DNA of 48,385 bases from Desulfocapsaceae bacterium (GTDB lineage Bacteria > Desulfobacterota > Desulfobulbia > Desulfobulbales > Desulfocapsaceae), in NCBI GenBank assembly GCA_028697885.1, contig JAQVER010000018.1:1-48385 (forward strand). The letters are read 5' to 3'. Numbering within the stretch: position 1 is the first letter of the stretch; the number at the start of each line of letters is the position of its first letter. Below, piece by piece: positions 37,728 through 45,664 of the stretch. The position numbers and the translations under genes are program-made. The notes below the pieces were generated by a model. That model ran no database searches, was not told where the DNA came from, and worked only from the letters and a program-made list of their open reading frames with translations.

Positions 37728-38555
37728 ATGCAGATAGCAGTTGCCAGCGGCAAAGGTGGAACAGGCAAGACCATTGTCTCAACCAGTCTGGTCATGTGTG
37801 CCCCAGGCCCAGTCCAGTACCTTGATTGTGATGTGGAAGAGCCCAATGGCCATATTTTCCTCAAGCCGGAGCTGGCCACCAGTGAACGGTGTACGGTCAT
37901 CATCCCGCAGATCCTGGAAGAAAAATGTACCTATTGCGGGAAATGCCGTGATATCTGCCGCTTTAATGCCATAACCCTTTTTGCCAATACCATCATGACC
38001 TTTCCCGAGATGTGTCACTCCTGCCTGGGTTGCTTTCGGGTCTGTCCGGAAGATGCCATTGTCCGGAGTGAGCGGGAGATCGGCATGCTGGAGTCCGGCA
38101 TGGCAGGCAATATCAGCTTTGTCCATGGCAGGATGCGGGTGGGAGAGGCCATGGCGGTTCCTCTGTTGAAGGCAGTGAAGAAAAAGGCAGACAAGGACGT
38201 GCTGGTCATCATTGATGCCCCTCCCGGTACCTCCTGTCCTTTTGTTGAGGCAATCTCCGATGCGGACTATGTCATCCTGGTCACTGAGCCCACTCCTTTC
38301 GGGCTCCACGACCTGAAGCTTGCCGCCGAAGTTCTCCGGAACTTTTCCAAGCCCAGTGGGGTGATCATCAACAGGGCAGATCTGGGGGACGCACAAGTTG
38401 AACAGTGGTGTCGGCAGGAGGATATTCCGGTTCTGCTCAAGATTCCCTTTGACCGAAAGGTTGCGGAAGGCTATGCCCGGGGCCAATGTCTGGTGGAGGT
38501 GCGTCCAGACCTTCGTCCTTCCCTGCAGGCCCTGATCGAGGAGATTTGTGCATGA
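37728..38555 (+). CDS. MinD/NBP35-type ATPase with inserted ferredoxin domain, first copy
   Basis: The 275-residue protein has a deviant Walker A ASGKGGTGKT near the N-terminus, two 4Fe-4S motifs at about 65-105 (CTYCGKCRDIC and CHSCLGCFRVCP) and VLVIIDAPPGTSCPF in the Walker B region. Such ATPases are typically found in pairs beside NifX/MTH1175-like proteins and are thought to assemble or move metal clusters. The stop overlaps the next start as ATGA. Confidence 0.88.
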   Translation: MQIAVASGKGGTGKTIVSTSLVMCAPGPVQYLDCDVEEPNGHIFLKPELATSERCTVIIPQILEEKCTYCGKCRDICRFNAITLFANTIMTFPEMCHSCLGCFRVCPEDAIVRSEREIGMLESGMAGNISFVHGRMRVGEAMAVPLLKAVKKKADKDVLVIIDAPPGTSCPFVEAISDADYVILVTEPTPFGLHDLKLAAEVLRNFSKPSGVIINRADLGDAQVEQWCRQEDIPVLLKIPFDRKVAEGYARGQCLVEVRPDLRPSLQALIEEICA

Positions 38556-39469
38556 AAGAAATTGTTATTTTAAGCGGTAAGGGCGGGACAGGTAAGACCA
38601 GCCTGGTAGGGTCTTTGGCCTATCTCGCGGAAAACAAGATTCTGGTGGACTGTGATGTTGATGCCGCTGATCTGCTTCTGCTGCTTGATCCCAAACCTCG
38701 CAGCAGCAATGAATTTCGTTCCGGCGTCAAGGCAAAAGTCATCAGCGATCAGTGTAGTGGCTGTGGAATCTGTGTGGATCTCTGCCAGTTTGAGGCCATT
38801 ACGCTGGACCTCGTTGGCCAGACGGCCCTGATGAACCCTTTGAGTTGTGAAGGCTGTGGCGTCTGTGCCCATTTCTGCCCGGAACAGGCCATTGTGCTCG
38901 AAGAAAATTACTGTGGAGACTGGTTCATCTCCGATACTGACTATGGCCCTCTGGTTCATGCCCAGCTCTTTGCCGGCGAAGAGAATTCAGGAAAACTGGT
39001 CTCCTTTATCAAACGGCAGGCCCGCGAGCTGGCAGAACAGACAGGGGTTGATCTGATTCTGATTGATGGCGCGCCAGGGATCGGTTGTCCGGTTATCGCC
39101 TCCCTCTCCAGTGTCGATATGGTCTTGGCCGTGACCGAACCAAGTCAGTCCGGCTGGCATGATCTGGAACGAGTTCTTGACCTGGCTCTTCATTTCAGGC
39201 TAGAATCTTTTGTCTGTATCAATAAATGGGATCTGCATCCGGCAATGGCCGCAGCGATAGAGGCAGCCTGTGTTGAACGTGGGGTTGAGGTTTTAGGTCG
39301 CATTCCCTTTGATCCCACAGTGATTGAGTGCCAGATCCAAGGCACTCCTGTAGTCTGCAATGAGCAAAGCCCAGCGGCTATGGCCATCAGGAAAATCTGG
39401 CAAACTTTGGGTGCAAGACAAATAAGCCTTTGTAAAGAAACAAGGGGCTTGGGAAACCAAAAAACATAA
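38552..39469 (+). CDS. MinD/NBP35-type ATPase with inserted ferredoxin domain, second copy
   Basis: A 305-residue protein from the ATG at 38552, which overlaps the stop of the first copy; a longer frame to 38486 is rejected. It has Walker A SGKGGTGKTS, ferredoxin motifs CSGCGICVDLC and CEGCGVCAHFCP, and LILIDGAPGIGCPV. It is clearly paralogous to its neighbour, and the two may form a heterodimer. The NifX-like gene product is the likely partner or cargo carrier. Confidence 0.9.
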   Translation: MKEIVILSGKGGTGKTSLVGSLAYLAENKILVDCDVDAADLLLLLDPKPRSSNEFRSGVKAKVISDQCSGCGICVDLCQFEAITLDLVGQTALMNPLSCEGCGVCAHFCPEQAIVLEENYCGDWFISDTDYGPLVHAQLFAGEENSGKLVSFIKRQARELAEQTGVDLILIDGAPGIGCPVIASLSSVDMVLAVTEPSQSGWHDLERVLDLALHFRLESFVCINKWDLHPAMAAAIEAACVERGVEVLGRIPFDPTVIECQIQGTPVVCNEQSPAAMAIRKIWQTLGARQISLCKETRGLGNQKT

Positions 39470-39588
39470 AAATGTAATGGGTATTTCTTTACGGCCCTTA
39501 AGTAAGGAATAGGGAAGGGCAAAAGAGAAAAGTGAAATCCAGAAACATATTAATATGTTAATAAAACAGAGGCTGCTAAGTCAACAGG

Positions 39589-39960
39589 AAATGGTATTAT
39601 GTCCCCGGATTTCCCGCACATTATTCCGAAAGTTAATCATCCGGGTATAGCGTCGATGCGCTTCACCGACAGCACGCGCGAGGCCCTCAGGTTTATCAGG
39701 GATTGCGATCAGGTGAACGTGATTTGTCATAAGACAGTAGGAGATAAAGCGTACGCCAAATTGTTCACCCTGTTGGCGGAGCAACTGTAGATATTCTCTT
39801 CTGTCGTCATCCTCGAAAAAAATATCCATCGAGCGTACACCACGTTGTATAACGTGATGTGGGTAACCTGGTACGACTATTCGTTTCATTCTCGCCATGG
39901 GGTAAGCATAGCAGGCAAAATGTTAAAATCAACAGGAAATAGTATTGTGTCCCCGGATTT
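39589..39960. mobile_element. Deletion derivative of the Y1-transposase element
   Basis: The right end (39937-39960) has the same GTGTCCCCGGATTT terminus as the full element at 41719-42458. From 39612 to 39962 it differs from that copy by only about two bases. The transposase 3' half and the left end are lost; instead, a second right-type end (39589-39612) abuts the break in direct orientation. Confidence 0.7.
39612..39898 (-). pseudogene. Truncated Y1 transposase, N-terminal 95 residues
   Basis: It codes for the first 95 residues of the transposase at 41737-42396 with a single difference (Gly/Ser at residue 11), and keeps the HxH metal site (NHVHLIA). The frame then runs into an element end and stops at 39581. 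The catalytic Tyr region is missing, so it should be inactive. Confidence 0.8.
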
Positions 39961-40078
39961 CCGAGCCGGTGGGGGGCCACTGCAACATAAGTGGGCATTA
40001 TGCGACATTGCCGGTACGAAGTTCGTTCTGGGTAGGGGCGAGGGCTGCCCGTCGTTTGTCGCTTTGCGATTGAAAAAA

Positions 40079-40585
40079 CTAATTTTTCAAGACCTGGCCC
40101 CTTCCTGGTTCTACCTGTGTGAAGTATGAATTTGCCAAGACTCCTGCAAGCATCAGCAATAATATCAAATTGAGAAAATCTTTATACAAAAACCACAAAA
40201 AAGTTATTGTATCCCCCTTGTTACGCATGACTTGTAAAGCAAAAAACTTGATCCGCAAAGTTTCGGCTATTGATCCGCCAGGGTGTTTAACGAAATCGTA
40301 AATTGCCGCCACCAGTGATATTGAAAAAAATATCCATGCTAAGACGCGCCAAGACTTCCACTTAAAAAAAACACCCCATGCGGAAATAACCCCAGGTGTC
40401 AAATAAGCAACTGTATACAACAACAATATTTTATGCGCCAAACACATATCGGTTGATACTGTGCTGTCGCATTCAGAAGACAAGACAACTCCTGTCAAAG
40501 AAAATGCAGAGTGAATATATGGGACGCAAATAAAGATAATGATCCAGCCTGTTATGCAGGTTCGGTTTATTAATGGAACTTTCAT
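40079..40585 (-). CDS. Small membrane protein, candidate immunity to the adjacent Rhs tip
   Basis: The 168-residue protein has about four membrane helices (about 12-30, 52-72, 82-100, 135-155). Its start codon directly abuts the stop of the Rhs C-terminal frame, the usual position of an immunity gene. The DNA is AT-richer than the Rhs core, as in other tip-immunity modules. I do not recognise the family. A membrane immunity protein would suit a toxin acting at the inner membrane. Confidence 0.6.
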   Translation of the reverse strand: MKVPLINRTCITGWIIIFICVPYIHSAFSLTGVVLSSECDSTVSTDMCLAHKILLLYTVAYLTPGVISAWGVFFKWKSWRVLAWIFFSISLVAAIYDFVKHPGGSIAETLRIKFFALQVMRNKGDTITFLWFLYKDFLNLILLLMLAGVLANSYFTQVEPGRGQVLKN

Positions 40586-41680
40586 CTAGTTATCACAATT
40601 TGGTGGGGGACATTTTTTGAGCTTTTCCTTGCAGGTCTCTATGCACTGCATTAAAATTCCAGACCCTAACAACGAATCTTTTCCTGTTGCTTGCATAACA
40701 CATTCTGTAATTATTTGATCATCCCCTGGCTGTTTCCTGCACAAATTAGAGGCGCATTTATTTCCTCTTGCCGTACCAATAATTTTTTCAGCAGTATCAG
40801 GAATTAAATCATCCCAGATACTACCTAATAAACCGCCTGTCAGCCCACTCTTATCAGGGATATTCACCGGATTCCCTGAAACATAAGCATACAGATTCAA
40901 CCCACCCCGCAACCCAATCGGATCAGCGGAAATGTACCTTCCCACCTCCGGATCATAAAACCTATTCCAGTTGTAATGCAACCCCGTCTCCGCATCGTAA
41001 TACTGGCCCGGAAACCGCAAGTTGTTGGCCACGGTAGCAGTCGTGATCTGGGCCTTCCCAAAGGGCAGATAGGCGGCCTGCCAGACCACGGCACCGCTTA
41101 CGGTGACCAGCTGCTGCGGGGTGCCGAGGTGGTCGTTGATAAAATAATAGGTGCCGGGGTTGGTCTGATATTCCTTCAGGACCATCGGCTCCCCATCCAG
41201 ATAAATATACTCCCTCAGTACGGTTCCGTCTACCAGCGTCTCGGCGATGAGCTGGTTGTTGAGGTCGTAGAGATAGTGAGTGGTGGTTGCGCCCACGGTC
41301 TTGCGGATGCGGCGGTTGCTGCTGTCGTAGCCGTAGGTGGCCACGGTTGCACTTTGTTTTTCCACCTGGATGATCCGGTTCAGGCCGTCGTAGGTAAAGG
41401 TGAAGGTCCCGTCTGTGATCATGTTGCCATTGGCGTCATAGGTCGGGGTCTTCGGGGTGGTGCCGGTGGTTCCGGTCAGCTGGTTGTTGGCGGGGTTGTA
41501 GCTGTAATTGCTCGCCTCGTCACTGGTGGTCGGGGACTGGATTCCGGCAATCCCGGTCACATGGCCTGCGGCGTCACGGGTATAGGTGTAATCAAAGCTC
41601 CCGGCCTTGATCCGGGCGACATTGTAGCGTTGATCGTAATTTCTGGTCAGATTGACTGAGCCCAGGGTGGCAGCCTTCAA
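40586..41680 (-). pseudogene. 5'-truncated Rhs C-terminal cassette with Cys-rich tip
   Basis: The frame codes for the last Rhs/YD repeats, the core-end PxGL boundary (RFYDPEVGRYISADPIGL at about 240-260) and a variable tip of about 85 residues with eight or so Cys (ending CPPPNCDN). The open frame enters from the transposon end at 41719 without an ATG; a TTG at 41680 is the only plausible start. It is thus an orphan Rhs-CT. The tip is unrecognised and may be a toxin or a fragment. A membrane protein gene follows at once. Confidence 0.72.
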
Positions 41681-41718
41681 CGGCCCGAAAGGAAGATGGG
41701 AGGCTGTTGAGACAAGCG

Positions 41719-42458
41719 AAATCCGGGGACATAATACTATTTAATACTGGGTCGACCAGGTGATTTAGGTCGGGCATCTGTGCCGGTAATTTTCTCCACT
41801 GTAGTAAAGAAACTTTCAGGGCCTAAGGGGCGTCCTGTCCGGCTTTTTTCCCGAAGCTGGTCGGTGTAGTCAGATTCAGTGCGTAGAAATTGTTTCCAAT
41901 CGGTTATTTCAGATAACAGGCTCGATTCTGTCACCAGAGGATCATGATCAATAACACCGGAATGGATAGCAGCACTTGACCAGGGATAGTCCCATGCCTG
42001 CGGAACCATTTTAGCCCGCACCGGATTCCGCTCTACATACCGCACCGCGGCCAGAAGATACTCGCCGGTACACACCGGACAAGAGGAAAAACGACCCTGA
42101 AATAAATATCCCCGCACATTATTCCGAAAGTTAATCATCCGGGTATAGCGTCGATGCGCTTCACCGACAGCACGCGCGAGGCCCTCAGGTTTATCAGGGA
42201 TTGCGATCAGGTGAACGTGATTTGTCATAAGACAGTAGGAGATAAAGCGTACGCCAAATTGTTCACCCTGTTGGCGGAGCAACTGTAGATATTCTCTTCT
42301 GTCGTCATCCTCGAAAAAAATATCCATCGAGCGTACACCACGTTGTATAACGTGATGTGGGTAACTTGGTACGACTATTCGTTTCATTCTCGCCATGGGG
42401 TAAGGATAGCAGGCAAAATGTTAAAATCAACAGGAAATAGTATTGTGTCCCCGGATTT
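41719..42458 (-). mobile_element. Full Y1-transposase (RAYT/IS200-like) element with inverted ends
   Basis: The 740-bp element is bounded by 24-bp ends that are inverted copies with one mismatch (41719-41742, 42435-42458; outer bases AAATCCGGGGACA). It encodes a complete transposase. One deletion derivative (39589-39960) and one end fragment (43604-43735) are present in the same island. Confidence 0.72.
41737..42396 (-). CDS. REP-associated/IS200-like Y1 transposase
   Basis: The 219-residue protein has the HUH metal site NHVHLIA (about 58-64), YTRMINFRNNVRG and the RNPVRAKMV motif near 120-130, as in REP-associated tyrosine transposases; the catalytic Tyr is in the EYLLAAVRYVE region. It cuts single-stranded DNA at hairpin ends in this superfamily. 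The frame is complete and could be active. Confidence 0.85.
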   Translation of the reverse strand: MARMKRIVVPSYPHHVIQRGVRSMDIFFEDDDRREYLQLLRQQGEQFGVRFISYCLMTNHVHLIAIPDKPEGLARAVGEAHRRYTRMINFRNNVRGYLFQGRFSSCPVCTGEYLLAAVRYVERNPVRAKMVPQAWDYPWSSAAIHSGVIDHDPLVTESSLLSEITDWKQFLRTESDYTDQLREKSRTGRPLGPESFFTTVEKITGTDARPKSPGRPSIK

Positions 42459-42497
42459 CCTTACTACTCTACCCTTGTTTTGAGCCGAGACAACCTA

Positions 42498-42977
42498 TCA
42501 CGGACGACCAATATCATCAGTATTAATAGGAGGACATTCGGGTTGGTTGGTACTATATTTTTTTTCAACATCATTCACCATCCAAAAAATAGCACCTTTA
42601 CATGGGAAGCTAACAATATCCTTAACATTTTGATATGTTACCGAGTAGTATTGGGGAGAAAAATTATAATTCCCTTGGCGTTTAATCACTTCTTTAGTGA
42701 CTTCATGCCATTCAGCATTTGTTACAATATTGATTAACTCTGTCCTTTCAGGTTTAGGCCCTCTTACAACAAATCGGGCTTTATTAGATGAATAGAGAAA
42801 TACTGATACAGTAACATCATCTCTCGTATACCCCTCTGGAATTTTTAGCCATATTGGAAGGCGTGAATCATTTGCTAAAAGAAAATTTGACTCAACGAAT
42901 CCATCCATAGGGTTACAAGAGCATAGAAAATTAAAAGATACCAATATCAGAGCTAATAAAAGATGCTGCTTGTTCAT
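42498..42977 (-). CDS. Lipoprotein, candidate immunity to the PLA2-like Rhs tip
   Basis: A 159-residue protein from the ATG at 42977, 4 bp after the Rhs-PLA2 stop; an upstream in-frame start at 43070 would overlap the Rhs gene and is rejected. The signal peptide (LLLALILVSFNFLCSC) ends in a lipobox with Cys21. The mature part is mainly beta-like with one further Cys pair (FPCKG, PECPP). Envelope lipoproteins are common immunity proteins against phospholipase effectors. Confidence 0.68.
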   Translation of the reverse strand: MNKQHLLLALILVSFNFLCSCNPMDGFVESNFLLANDSRLPIWLKIPEGYTRDDVTVSVFLYSSNKARFVVRGPKPERTELINIVTNAEWHEVTKEVIKRQGNYNFSPQYYSVTYQNVKDIVSFPCKGAIFWMVNDVEKKYSTNQPECPPINTDDIGRP

Positions 42978-42981
42978 GGCA

Positions 42982-43617
42982 TTAGTTACACTCACAATCA
43001 TCATAATTAAGCTTAGCCTCTGAAATACACTTAACAGCTTCTCTGTTACACTTTTGGCATGCTGGAACAATTGGAAAAGCAGAAAAAGTACCTATCCAAG
43101 AGGACCAATTACACCCATTTTTGGAATAACAATCATCATGCTTTTTACAACAATTTTTATAACATTTATTATTGTTTAACTCACCCATAGGCCAAGAACA
43201 GATATCATCTTGCCTATCAAAACCAGGCCGAAAATTACCATTCCATGGTTTAAGCGGTGTTGATGATGGTGGCGCCCCCATAGGAAATTCCCAATAATTT
43301 CGGTCTGGATCAATATAAGCCAACCCCCATGGGTCTACCGCATTTACCGGATTCCCCGCAACATACGCATACAGATTCATCCCCCCATCAAGCCCAATCG
43401 GATCAGCGGAGATGTATCTCCCAACCTCCGGATCATAAAACCTGTTCCAATTATAATGCAACCCCGTCTCCGCATCAAAATACTGGCCAGCAAACCGCAG
43501 GTTATTGGCCACGGTCGCAGTTGCAATCTGGGCCTTGCCAAAAGGCAGATAGGCGGCCTGCCAGACCACGGCTCCAGCGGCGGTCACCAGCTGCTGCGCA
43601 AAGAAATCTGGGGACAT
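42982..43617 (-). CDS. Rhs C-terminal cassette with phospholipase-A2-like tip
   Basis: The 211-residue frame has the Rhs core end (about 10-95, FYDPEVGRYISADPIGL) and a tip of about 110 residues. The tip contains CCKKHDDCY (Cys146, Cys147, His150, Asp151, Cys153), the His-Asp active-site motif of secreted phospholipase A2, with further Cys for disulfides. The ATG lies in a transposon end (43604-43627), which replaces the N-terminal Rhs shell. Without a shell or signal it may be silent, or serve as a swap cassette. Confidence 0.78.
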   Translation of the reverse strand: MSPDFFAQQLVTAAGAVVWQAAYLPFGKAQIATATVANNLRFAGQYFDAETGLHYNWNRFYDPEVGRYISADPIGLDGGMNLYAYVAGNPVNAVDPWGLAYIDPDRNYWEFPMGAPPSSTPLKPWNGNFRPGFDRQDDICSWPMGELNNNKCYKNCCKKHDDCYSKNGCNWSSWIGTFSAFPIVPACQKCNREAVKCISEAKLNYDDCECN

Positions 43618-43735
43618 AATACTATTTTATGCTGGGTCGACCAGGTGATTTAGATCGGGCATCTGTCCCGGTAATCTTCTCTACTGTGGTAAAAAAACAT
43701 CAGGGTTGAAGGGGCGTCCTGTCCGACTTTTTTTT
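43604..43735 (-). mobile_element. Left-end remnant of the Y1-transposase element
   Basis: This stretch matches the left end and transposase 3' end of the full copy (from 41719) but with several changes and stops after about 130 bp. The transposase reading frame is broken. It supplies the start codon for the PLA2-type Rhs cassette. Confidence 0.65.
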
Positions 43736-44146: not shown

Positions 44147-45664
44147 ATGACTATCATCAATCCAGAAGACTTTATCAGCTCCATCGCCGACAGTCTGCAG
44201 TCTATCTCTTATGCTCATCCCCGCGATTTTATTCAGGCCATGGCCCGCGCCTATGAAAAAGAGCAGAATCCGGCAGCCAAAGACGCTATCGCCCAAATCC
44301 TGATCAACTCCCGGATGGCAGCCATTGGCCAGCGTCCGATCTGTCAGGACACCGGCATTGTCACCGTCTTTCTGAAGGTTGGTATGCAGTGCCGCTTTGA
44401 TACGGATCGGAGTATGCAGGAGCTGGTGGATGAAGGAGTGCGCCGGGCCTGGCTTAATCCGGAAAACCCCCTGCGCGCCTCAGTGCTTGCCGATCCGGCA
44501 GGAAAAAGGAAAAACACCGGAGACAATACCCCGGCAGTCATTTACACCGAACTTGTTCCCGGCAGCGTTGTTGACATCCGCATTGCGGCCAAGGGTGGCG
44601 GTTCTGAGAATAAGAGTAAGTTTGTGACCCTGAATCCAGGCGATTCCATCGTGGACTGGGTGGTGAAGACCGTGCCGACCATGGGAGCCGGCTGGTGTCC
44701 TCCGGGAATCCTGGGAATCGGTATTGGTGGGACGGTTGACCGGGCTATGGTGCTGGCCAAGGAATCATTGTTGGAACCCATTGACATTCAGGAACTGATC
44801 GAACGCGGGCCAGTGAGCCGTATAGAAGAGTTGCGCCTGGAAATTTATGAGGCAGTCAATAACTTAGGCATCGGCGCTCAGGGCCTGGGCGGACTGACCA
44901 CGGCACTTGATGTCAAGATCAAGGATTGCCCCACCCACGCAGCTTCCCTGCCGGTGGGCATGATCCCCAACTGTGTTGCTACCCGTCACATCCACTTTAT
45001 TCTCGACGGCAGCGGCCCGGCTCATTTTGAACCGCCGCATCTGGAGGACTGGCCGCAGATTAAATGGGAAATGGGGCCAGAGGTGAAACGGGTACAGCTT
45101 GATACTCTCAGTCGTGAGGAAATCGCCGGCTGGCGGATTGGTGAGACCCTGCTCCTGAATGGAACCATCCTCACAGGTCGGGACGCAGCCCATGGCCGCA
45201 TCCAGCAGTTGCTGGCCCAGGGGGAGCCGTTGCCAGCCGGGGTGGACTTTAAAGGGAAATTTATCTACTACGTCGGGCCTGTCGATCCGGTCGGTGACGA
45301 AATTGTCGGCCCTGCCGGTCCTACCACCGCCACCCGCATGGATAAATATACCGAGATGATGCTGTCCCAGACCGGCCTGCTGGGCATGATCGGCAAATCA
45401 GAACGGGGTGATGTCGCTATTGAATCCATTAAAAAACATGGCGCGGTCTATCTGATGGCCGTGGGGGGGGCGGCCTATCTGGTCTCCAAGGCGATCAAGA
45501 AATCACGGGTGGTGGCCTTTGCCGATCTGGGTATGGAGGCTATTTACGAGTTTGAGGTGGAAGATATGCCGGTGACCGTCGCCGTGGACAGCAGGGGGGA
45601 GTCCGTGCATAAGAGTGGGCCGGCGCTGTGGCAGCAAAAAATAAGGGATTACAGAAAAAAATAG
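44147..45664 (+). CDS. Class I iron-sulfur fumarate hydratase
   Basis: The 505-residue protein joins the alpha and beta parts of class I fumarase. Cys66 (ICQDTGIV), Cys184 (GAGWCPPGIL) and Cys276 (IPNCVATRH) match the three ligands of the 4Fe-4S cluster. The C-terminal part has YYVGPVDPVGDEIVGPAGPTT and TRMDKYTEMML. It interconverts fumarate and malate in the cytoplasm and is oxygen-sensitive, as suits an anaerobe. It stands alone on the plus strand. Confidence 0.95.
   Translation: MTIINPEDFISSIADSLQSISYAHPRDFIQAMARAYEKEQNPAAKDAIAQILINSRMAAIGQRPICQDTGIVTVFLKVGMQCRFDTDRSMQELVDEGVRRAWLNPENPLRASVLADPAGKRKNTGDNTPAVIYTELVPGSVVDIRIAAKGGGSENKSKFVTLNPGDSIVDWVVKTVPTMGAGWCPPGILGIGIGGTVDRAMVLAKESLLEPIDIQELIERGPVSRIEELRLEIYEAVNNLGIGAQGLGGLTTALDVKIKDCPTHAASLPVGMIPNCVATRHIHFILDGSGPAHFEPPHLEDWPQIKWEMGPEVKRVQLDTLSREEIAGWRIGETLLLNGTILTGRDAAHGRIQQLLAQGEPLPAGVDFKGKFIYYVGPVDPVGDEIVGPAGPTTATRMDKYTEMMLSQTGLLGMIGKSERGDVAIESIKKHGAVYLMAVGGAAYLVSKAIKKSRVVAFADLGMEAIYEFEVEDMPVTVAVDSRGESVHKSGPALWQQKIRDYRKK

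Follow-up and report, generated by a model that had tools for sequence, protein, structure and literature searches.

A GGGGWSAS motif marks the terminal inverted repeats (TIRs) of RAYT-like genes, known as TIRYT or TIRtrons (Di Nocera 2013), most of which have been placed in subclass 2.1 of the TnpA_REP transposases; HUH and Y---NP motifs are the signature of class 2 (Quentin 2018). Among polymorphic toxins, orphan (dissociated) Rhs tips have been explained by C-terminal displacement (Jackson 2009), and strings of immunity genes have been described behind toxin genes (Zhang 2012) and as orphan immunity arrays of type VI secretion system (T6SS) clusters (Kirchberger 2017); all five papers are used here for the parts of them available to us. 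It is an open question by what routes toxin tips and their immunity genes are acquired, displaced, and retained in orphan arrays. Orphan tips are reportedly also a subject of work by Poole from 2011. Here we examine a 48,385-nucleotide stretch of a Desulfocapsaceae bacterium (contig JAQVER010000018.1 of assembly GCA_028697885.1, positions 1 to 48,385; hereafter the window), in which two Rhs cassettes lie between directly oriented copies of a Y1 transposon, one of them full and two truncated. The transposon is of a known kind and coincides precisely with the points at which orphan cassettes are cut, both in Rhs arrays and in an array of the CdiA type; it also neighbours a Tae4 pair of the T6SS. 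The island probably represents the remnants of an rhs array that occupied a variable chromosomal site and was remodelled by a transposon of the TIRYT (TIRtron) type.

Read along the minus strand, on which all its features lie, the island consists of a right element relic (43735-43603), cassette 2 (43602-42460), the full element (42459-41718), cassette 1 (41717-39962), a left element relic (39961-39614), and a solo upstream end (39613-39578). The middle copy is the only one of full length; its 742 bp hold a single Y1 transposase gene between 25-bp inverted ends (GTCCCCGGATTTC), and these ends (41718-41742 and 42435-42459) match each other at 96% over 25 nt. Upstream-end copies begin at 39578, 39926, and 42424. 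The left relic retains the upstream end and the first ~98 transposase codons, with 300 nt (39613-39912) that are 99% identical to 42111-42410 of the middle copy; the 3' half of its gene is gone, and the break inside the gene is joined to the solo upstream end (39578-39613) of a further copy. Of the right relic only the 3' part remains, comprising the downstream end and the C-terminal portion of the transposase gene, with identities of 91% and 81% over two stretches; the downstream-end copies 41718-41813 and 43603-43698 are 91% identical. The island thus has cargo between element copies, as in a composite transposon, with both outer copies truncated. An earlier note on this DNA had proposed the order element, cassette, element, cassette, element fragment, with both cassettes cut on the 5' side within the Rhs core and keeping tip and immunity gene, and the repeat comparison bears this out (immunity being a candidate function). 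Its description of the cassettes as bracketed by Y1-transposase ends also holds, with the refinement that the left element is joined to a solo end and that neither outer copy is complete. Within the draft assembly (3.88 Mb, 174 contigs), TGTCCCCRGATTTC occurs with at most one mismatch at 15 places. Five of these are exact and lie in the island, leaving no exact copy of the element end elsewhere in the assembly, and the other ten have one mismatch; a control search with the sequence read backward gave 3 forward and 1 reverse matches.

Each cassette comprises a 5'-cut Rhs core, a tip, and an immunity candidate. Both contain a match to Rhs_assc_core (TIGR03696; E values of 1.1e-28 and 1.1e-29), and their cores are 86% identical at the DNA level. 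Homology of the Rhs DNA to relatives runs to position 41718 in three genomes (to 41692-41700 in others) for cassette 1 and to 43598 in several genomes for cassette 2, indicating that the cores are cut at the element ends with 0 to 5 bp of filler. In cassette 1 (39962..41717), rhs fragment 1 (40586..41680) encodes core and tip 1 in a frame that stays open back to the element end, and is followed by immunity candidate 1 (40079..40585), by eye a membrane protein, with no Pfam match. The core stub of cassette 2 (42460..43602) is shorter; rhs fragment 2 (42982..43617) ends in tip 2, with a CCxxHDxC motif by eye, and has an ATG within the element end in frame with the core. Behind it lies immunity candidate 2 (42498..42977), lipoprotein-like by eye. 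By position and by eye, both small genes behind the tips look like immunity genes. With a partial core, a tip, an immunity gene assigned by position, and no 5' delivery part, the cassettes conform to the description of orphan Rhs cassettes. The earlier note had suggested a search for a full-length rhs gene matching the cassette cores; none was found in the assembly, where the only core matches are those in the island itself. Among 257 genomes, a homologue of tip 1 was found in its own genome only and tip 2 in two, its own and G632, where homologues of tip 2 and of immunity candidate 2 behind it sit on a 1,563-codon open frame with an Rhs core; no element lies within the 3.2 kb examined there. 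Two apparent regularities of the cuts did not hold. Both cuts in the window fall at a Gly-Thr-Pro codon run of intact homologues, but the cut in locus L128 (below) does not, arguing against a shared target motif, and an element end supplying a start codon is not a general rule, being in frame for only cassette 2 of the two.

By its sequence features, the element is a TIRYT (TIRtron), a known but little-studied kind. Its Y1 (HUH) transposase (41737..42396, 219 aa) matches PF01797 with 34.5 bits and the profile for REP (repetitive extragenic palindromic)-associated tyrosine transposases, NF047646, with 50.7 bits, which is under the curated cut-off of 80; four relatives score 68.9 to 75.6 bits. 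Residues H60, H62, Y120, N124, and P125 are invariant in a 13-row alignment of transposases and correspond to the HUH and Y---NP motifs of class 2. The upstream end (GGGGACAC) fits GGGGWSAS, and the downstream end (GGGGACAT) departs from it in the last letter. Profile searches reported no separate domain for the C-terminus of the transposase, the part that carries a helix-turn-helix extension in subclass 2.1, and the ends do not form an abundant genomic repeat family of the REP-associated kind in a search confined to this element's own end. Relatives of the transposase are present in 121 of 193 related genomes at E <= 1e-20 (144 of 193 by profile search) and also occur on contigs labelled as many phyla. 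They are rare in phage and plasmid collections (2 loci on viral contigs, 1 of 50,697 phage records, and 7 of 72,556 plasmid records). Like TIRtrons, the element combines a TnpA_REP-type Y1 HUH transposase with TIRs that carry the GGGGWSAS motif, and its ends also occur as dimers and in clusters. Unlike them, its copies in the window stand in direct tandem with gene cassettes between them, an arrangement absent from the available parts of the two TIRtron accounts (Di Nocera 2013, Quentin 2018). We likewise found no description of TIRYT/RAYT or IS200/IS605 elements arranged with Rhs, contact-dependent inhibition (CDI), or polymorphic-toxin cassettes among the titles, abstract openings, and passages of open-licence papers that were covered, which is weak evidence of absence. 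Element ends repeated side by side next to the transposase gene were observed in L233 (11060-11200), L054, L057, L129, and L134, a pattern that would fit insertion of new copies at old ends or ends that stayed behind.

The island occupies a site between two plus-strand genes, coding for a Mrp-like ATPase with ferredoxin motifs (38546..39469) and a fumarase-like protein (44147..45664), both assigned by eye. The Mrp-like gene is matched in 9 of 17 genomes of the genus and the fumarase-like gene in 16 of 17, including G007 at only 36% identity. Empty sites, for which the earlier note had proposed to look, are present in G006, G003, G005, and G010, where the two matches are 148 to 246 bp apart. 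G016 has, counted from the Mrp-like gene, an N-terminal rhs fragment, an element relic with 89% DNA identity to the window element, an immunity candidate, and an rhs gene, interrupted by the contig end, whose core carries a different tip. Neither window tip has a match in this genome. The empty sites and the rhs genes of G016 indicate that the content of the site varies and that rhs has been present there in another congeneric species. In G002, ~3.0 kb with two other genes separates the Mrp-like and fumarase matches (L283; G002:C8, 122474-125468); by eye these genes are antiporter-like and MscS-like, so that the site takes other inserts as well.

Rhs sequences were found in 69 of the 193 related genomes, and 80 of the higher-ranking regions among the matches listed were combined with L128, known beforehand and reached via the transposase locus L036 (but also among the Rhs matches listed), to give 81 loci. 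Six of them contain the transposase at E <= 1e-20, and one more, that of G016, a weaker relic; in all seven, the transposase lies 0.7 to 2.0 kb past the core and on the rhs strand. Conversely, an Rhs core match is present in 3 of the 109 transposase loci L019-L127 (L036, L103, and L119). The clearest case is L233, from another family. Here a full rhs gene of 2,043 codons is followed by a second rhs copy that lacks 1.29 kb of core and has an element at that point; the rhs sequence flanking the element matches the first copy at 91.8% over 608 bp (left) and 90.7% over 397 bp (right). After the tip and immunity candidate of this second copy, a second direct element begins and runs off the contig. 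In L128, a full-length rhs and an immunity candidate precede the element, and an orphan tip follows whose core stub begins at the element end, with two solo ends further on; the cut is near the end of the core. L210 has a full-length rhs, an element with several upstream ends, and an orphan core that starts at the element end, cut far upstream. At the DNA level, nothing in this orphan core matches the full-length rhs next to it (tblastx segments are mostly 46-56% identical), indicating that its parent was another gene. In G048:C197 (L184/L142), a full-length rhs is followed by three direct elements, mutually 94.5-95.4% identical, with different small genes between them; L184 resembles an immunity array with transposon spacers. 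As to whether other Rhs tips occur at these ends, a point raised in the earlier note, L128, L210, and L233 provide similar layouts, and the tips of the window itself were found in no other bracket. These layouts in other bacteria probably arise because the transposon multiplies in toxin arrays and trims them, though it might also move toxins around.

Direct copies also occur away from Rhs genes. In six of 80 loci chosen by the transposase alone, additional copies or fragments (100 bp or longer) are present; the eight stretches concerned are all direct, as are 6 of 6 further copies in four loci picked because the search had listed neighbouring matches. In L063 (3450-5666), genes for a Tae4 T6SS amidase effector and a WG-repeat partner, on the strand opposite to the element, lie between a C-terminal transposase fragment and a full element. 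L074 (1-2123) has genes for a BrnT-like protein (below the cut-off) and a CopG-type antitoxin between a transposase relic and a full element. Between the copies in L141 lies a gene for a SEC-C protein, and the cargo in L139, L143, and L072 has no confident match. In a 24-kb Pseudomonas aeruginosa record (L337; NZ_CP116719.1, 5421-22887), a gene for a DUF637 protein is followed by a CdiA-type array of small genes, among them toxin-domain genes. The array holds three full elements and a single relic, all running along the direction of the listed genes, and toxin genes cut on the 5' side are flush with elements. One of the elements directly adjoins a gene for an endonuclease toxin, whose match begins at profile position 11 of 132. 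Two copies of a unit comprising element, toxin fragment, and further genes are present (99.955% identity over 2,214 bp), and the left break of the unit coincides with the element end. This 24-kb "plasmid" could represent part of a chromosomal array, or else a circle.

Controls limit what can be read from frequency and orientation. Densities of the transposase in the same genomes predict 0.74 of 81 Rhs loci with an element, and the probability of at least 6 is about 1e-4; this density is a lower bound, as at most 15 candidates were scored in most genomes, and the E-values of the two counts are not quite on the same scale. Around hsdR, taken as an island control, 2 of 40 loci (the best 40 regions among the hsdR matches listed) contain the transposase at E <= 1e-20, at distances of 6 and 7 kb from the gene, and three more have weaker matches. 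A general preference for islands can therefore explain the excess at Rhs loci, and we rejected the idea that the elements seek them, since 6 of 81 is not clearly above 2 of 40 and the numbers are too small to tell the two apart. In 80 control loci, transposase and upstream neighbour are on one strand in 51 of 72 cases (eight had no such neighbour), transposase and downstream neighbour in 34 of 67 (13 had none), and the transposase is on the GC-skew-positive strand in 50 of 76 (four with short flanks were dropped). Co-orientation with rhs is thus expected in part and says little, and it was discarded as evidence for units. Tandem full-length copies are uncommon, the 68 matches listed for 48 of 395 genomes of the phylum all being on different contigs, although this search, with a threshold of E <= 1e-45 and no more than 7 candidates scored in each genome, would overlook relics and shows only one of the window's three copies.

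For the remodelling of an rhs array by the element, we infer the following order of events and process of deletion. Copies would insert nearby and all in one direction, downstream of immunity genes and within rhs cores, and the direct orientation of local copies would fit a one-strand transposase (a preference for the lagging strand is reported for IS608). The intervening DNA would then be lost, either because direct copies recombined or through an aberrant excision by the Y1 transposase that was anchored at an element end. Such deletion would strip the 5' delivery parts and yield cassettes of core stub, tip, and immunity gene flush with element ends, the cassettes being what survives after insertions behind immunity genes and within cores. 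The strongest evidence comes from L233, where the element sits in one of two rhs copies and the DNA between two points of the core is gone; this locus supports the repeated insertion into Rhs sequence that the earlier note had offered as one possibility. Two direct insertions followed by recombination between them would produce both L233 and the flush borders elsewhere, and aberrant excision anchored at an end would have the same result. The cut points are flush yet scattered, as the two in the window and those of L128 and L210 illustrate. Several observations weigh against this account. No sister copy of the cut rhs gene survives in the window or in L210, so that the deletions there are not seen directly, and the orphan core of L210 derives from a gene other than the neighbouring full-length rhs. 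No intermediate with an element in an intact rhs gene was present among the loci examined. The G016 site is only half resolved, its fumarase gene being on a separate contig, and the window element is on the strand of negative GC skew, opposite to the lean elsewhere.

The bracketed cassettes could instead be mobile units, with the transposase moving single-stranded DNA from end to end, tip and immunity gene included, between arrays. This was the earlier note's other suggestion, a way to mobilise toxin tips, and the composite-like brackets in several loci leave it a real though minor chance; we saw no moved cassette. Full or partial brackets surround toxin/immunity or toxin-antitoxin genes in the window (two cassettes), L233, L128 (solo ends), L063, L074, and L337, and the element-led unit of L337 is duplicated with its left break at an element end. 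However, the second copy of that unit extends to the end of the record, and the repeat may be explained by recombination or an assembly artefact. The tips and immunity genes of the window were matched neither in the other loci fetched nor in any other bracket, the homologues of tip 2 and its immunity candidate belong to the large rhs frame of G632 with no element nearby, the element of L233 is inside one rhs copy, and the other tandem pairs (L141, L139, L143, and L072) carry other cargo. A broader version, in which TIRtron ends form a cassette system whose Y1 transposase carries tip and immunity pairs into and out of Rhs, CdiA-type, and T6SS arrays, is rather unlikely; if true, it would supply the missing mechanism for tip gain and displacement. 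It is still less probable that the element marks the illegitimate side of tip displacement, where an incoming module of core, tip, immunity gene, and element is integrated on its left by homologous recombination in the core and on its right by a junction at the element end, orphaning the old tip downstream. L128 and L210 do have the order full rhs, tip, immunity candidate, element, cut core, and old tip, which fits the C-terminal displacement model (Jackson 2009, in its available parts) and the question of insertion mechanism left open in the part of Kirchberger 2017 available to us. That model predicts identical orphan and resident cores, but L210 shows no DNA match, L128 85% over 41 bp, and the cores of the window cassettes 86%.

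Two further explanations are very improbable. Independent random insertions into one long rhs gene, without deletion, draw no support from the window, and the insertion into an rhs copy in L233 came with a deletion. The middle element is flanked by the 3' end of one cassette and the inside of another, and the assembly has no other core match. Because the two sides of the middle element belong to different cassettes, the window does not show the single interrupted rhs gene that the earlier note had named as its refutation, and insertion without deletion is refuted there unless parts were lost later. An assembly artefact joining repeats is no more credible than that. The genome is a draft of 174 contigs, but the island lies inside a 48-kb contig, its flanks are conserved in congeners, and similar structures occur in other assemblies.

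Compared with the orphans of the displacement model (Jackson 2009, as far as available), the window cassettes likewise consist of a leftover core stub, a tip, and an immunity candidate, but they start at a transposon end, their cores differ, and no resident full-length rhs was found in the assembly. L184 shares its strings of small genes behind an effector gene with the orphan immunity arrays of T6SS clusters and with the immunity-gene strings behind polymorphic toxins, with the difference that its genes are separated by transposon copies; this comparison extends to the parts of those two accounts at hand (Kirchberger 2017, Zhang 2012). The alternation of direct copies with cargo recalls translocatable units.

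IS26 is a DDE element whose direct insertion sequence (IS) copies alternate with cargo in such units; here the transposase is of the Y1 type, and there is no evidence that units move. H-repeat elements are IS-like and reside in the rhs loci of Escherichia coli, as the present element resides in rhs loci, but their transposase family is different. The element either trims and rearranges toxin arrays or moves cassettes, and both readings are testable by genome comparison in species with many sequenced strains.

Neither tip has a Pfam match, and tip 2 has no convincing match among solved structures. The CCxxHDxC motif of tip 2 (42985-43338; also L335) resembles phospholipase A2 by eye, and the His-Asp pair and several cysteines are conserved in the G632 homologue.

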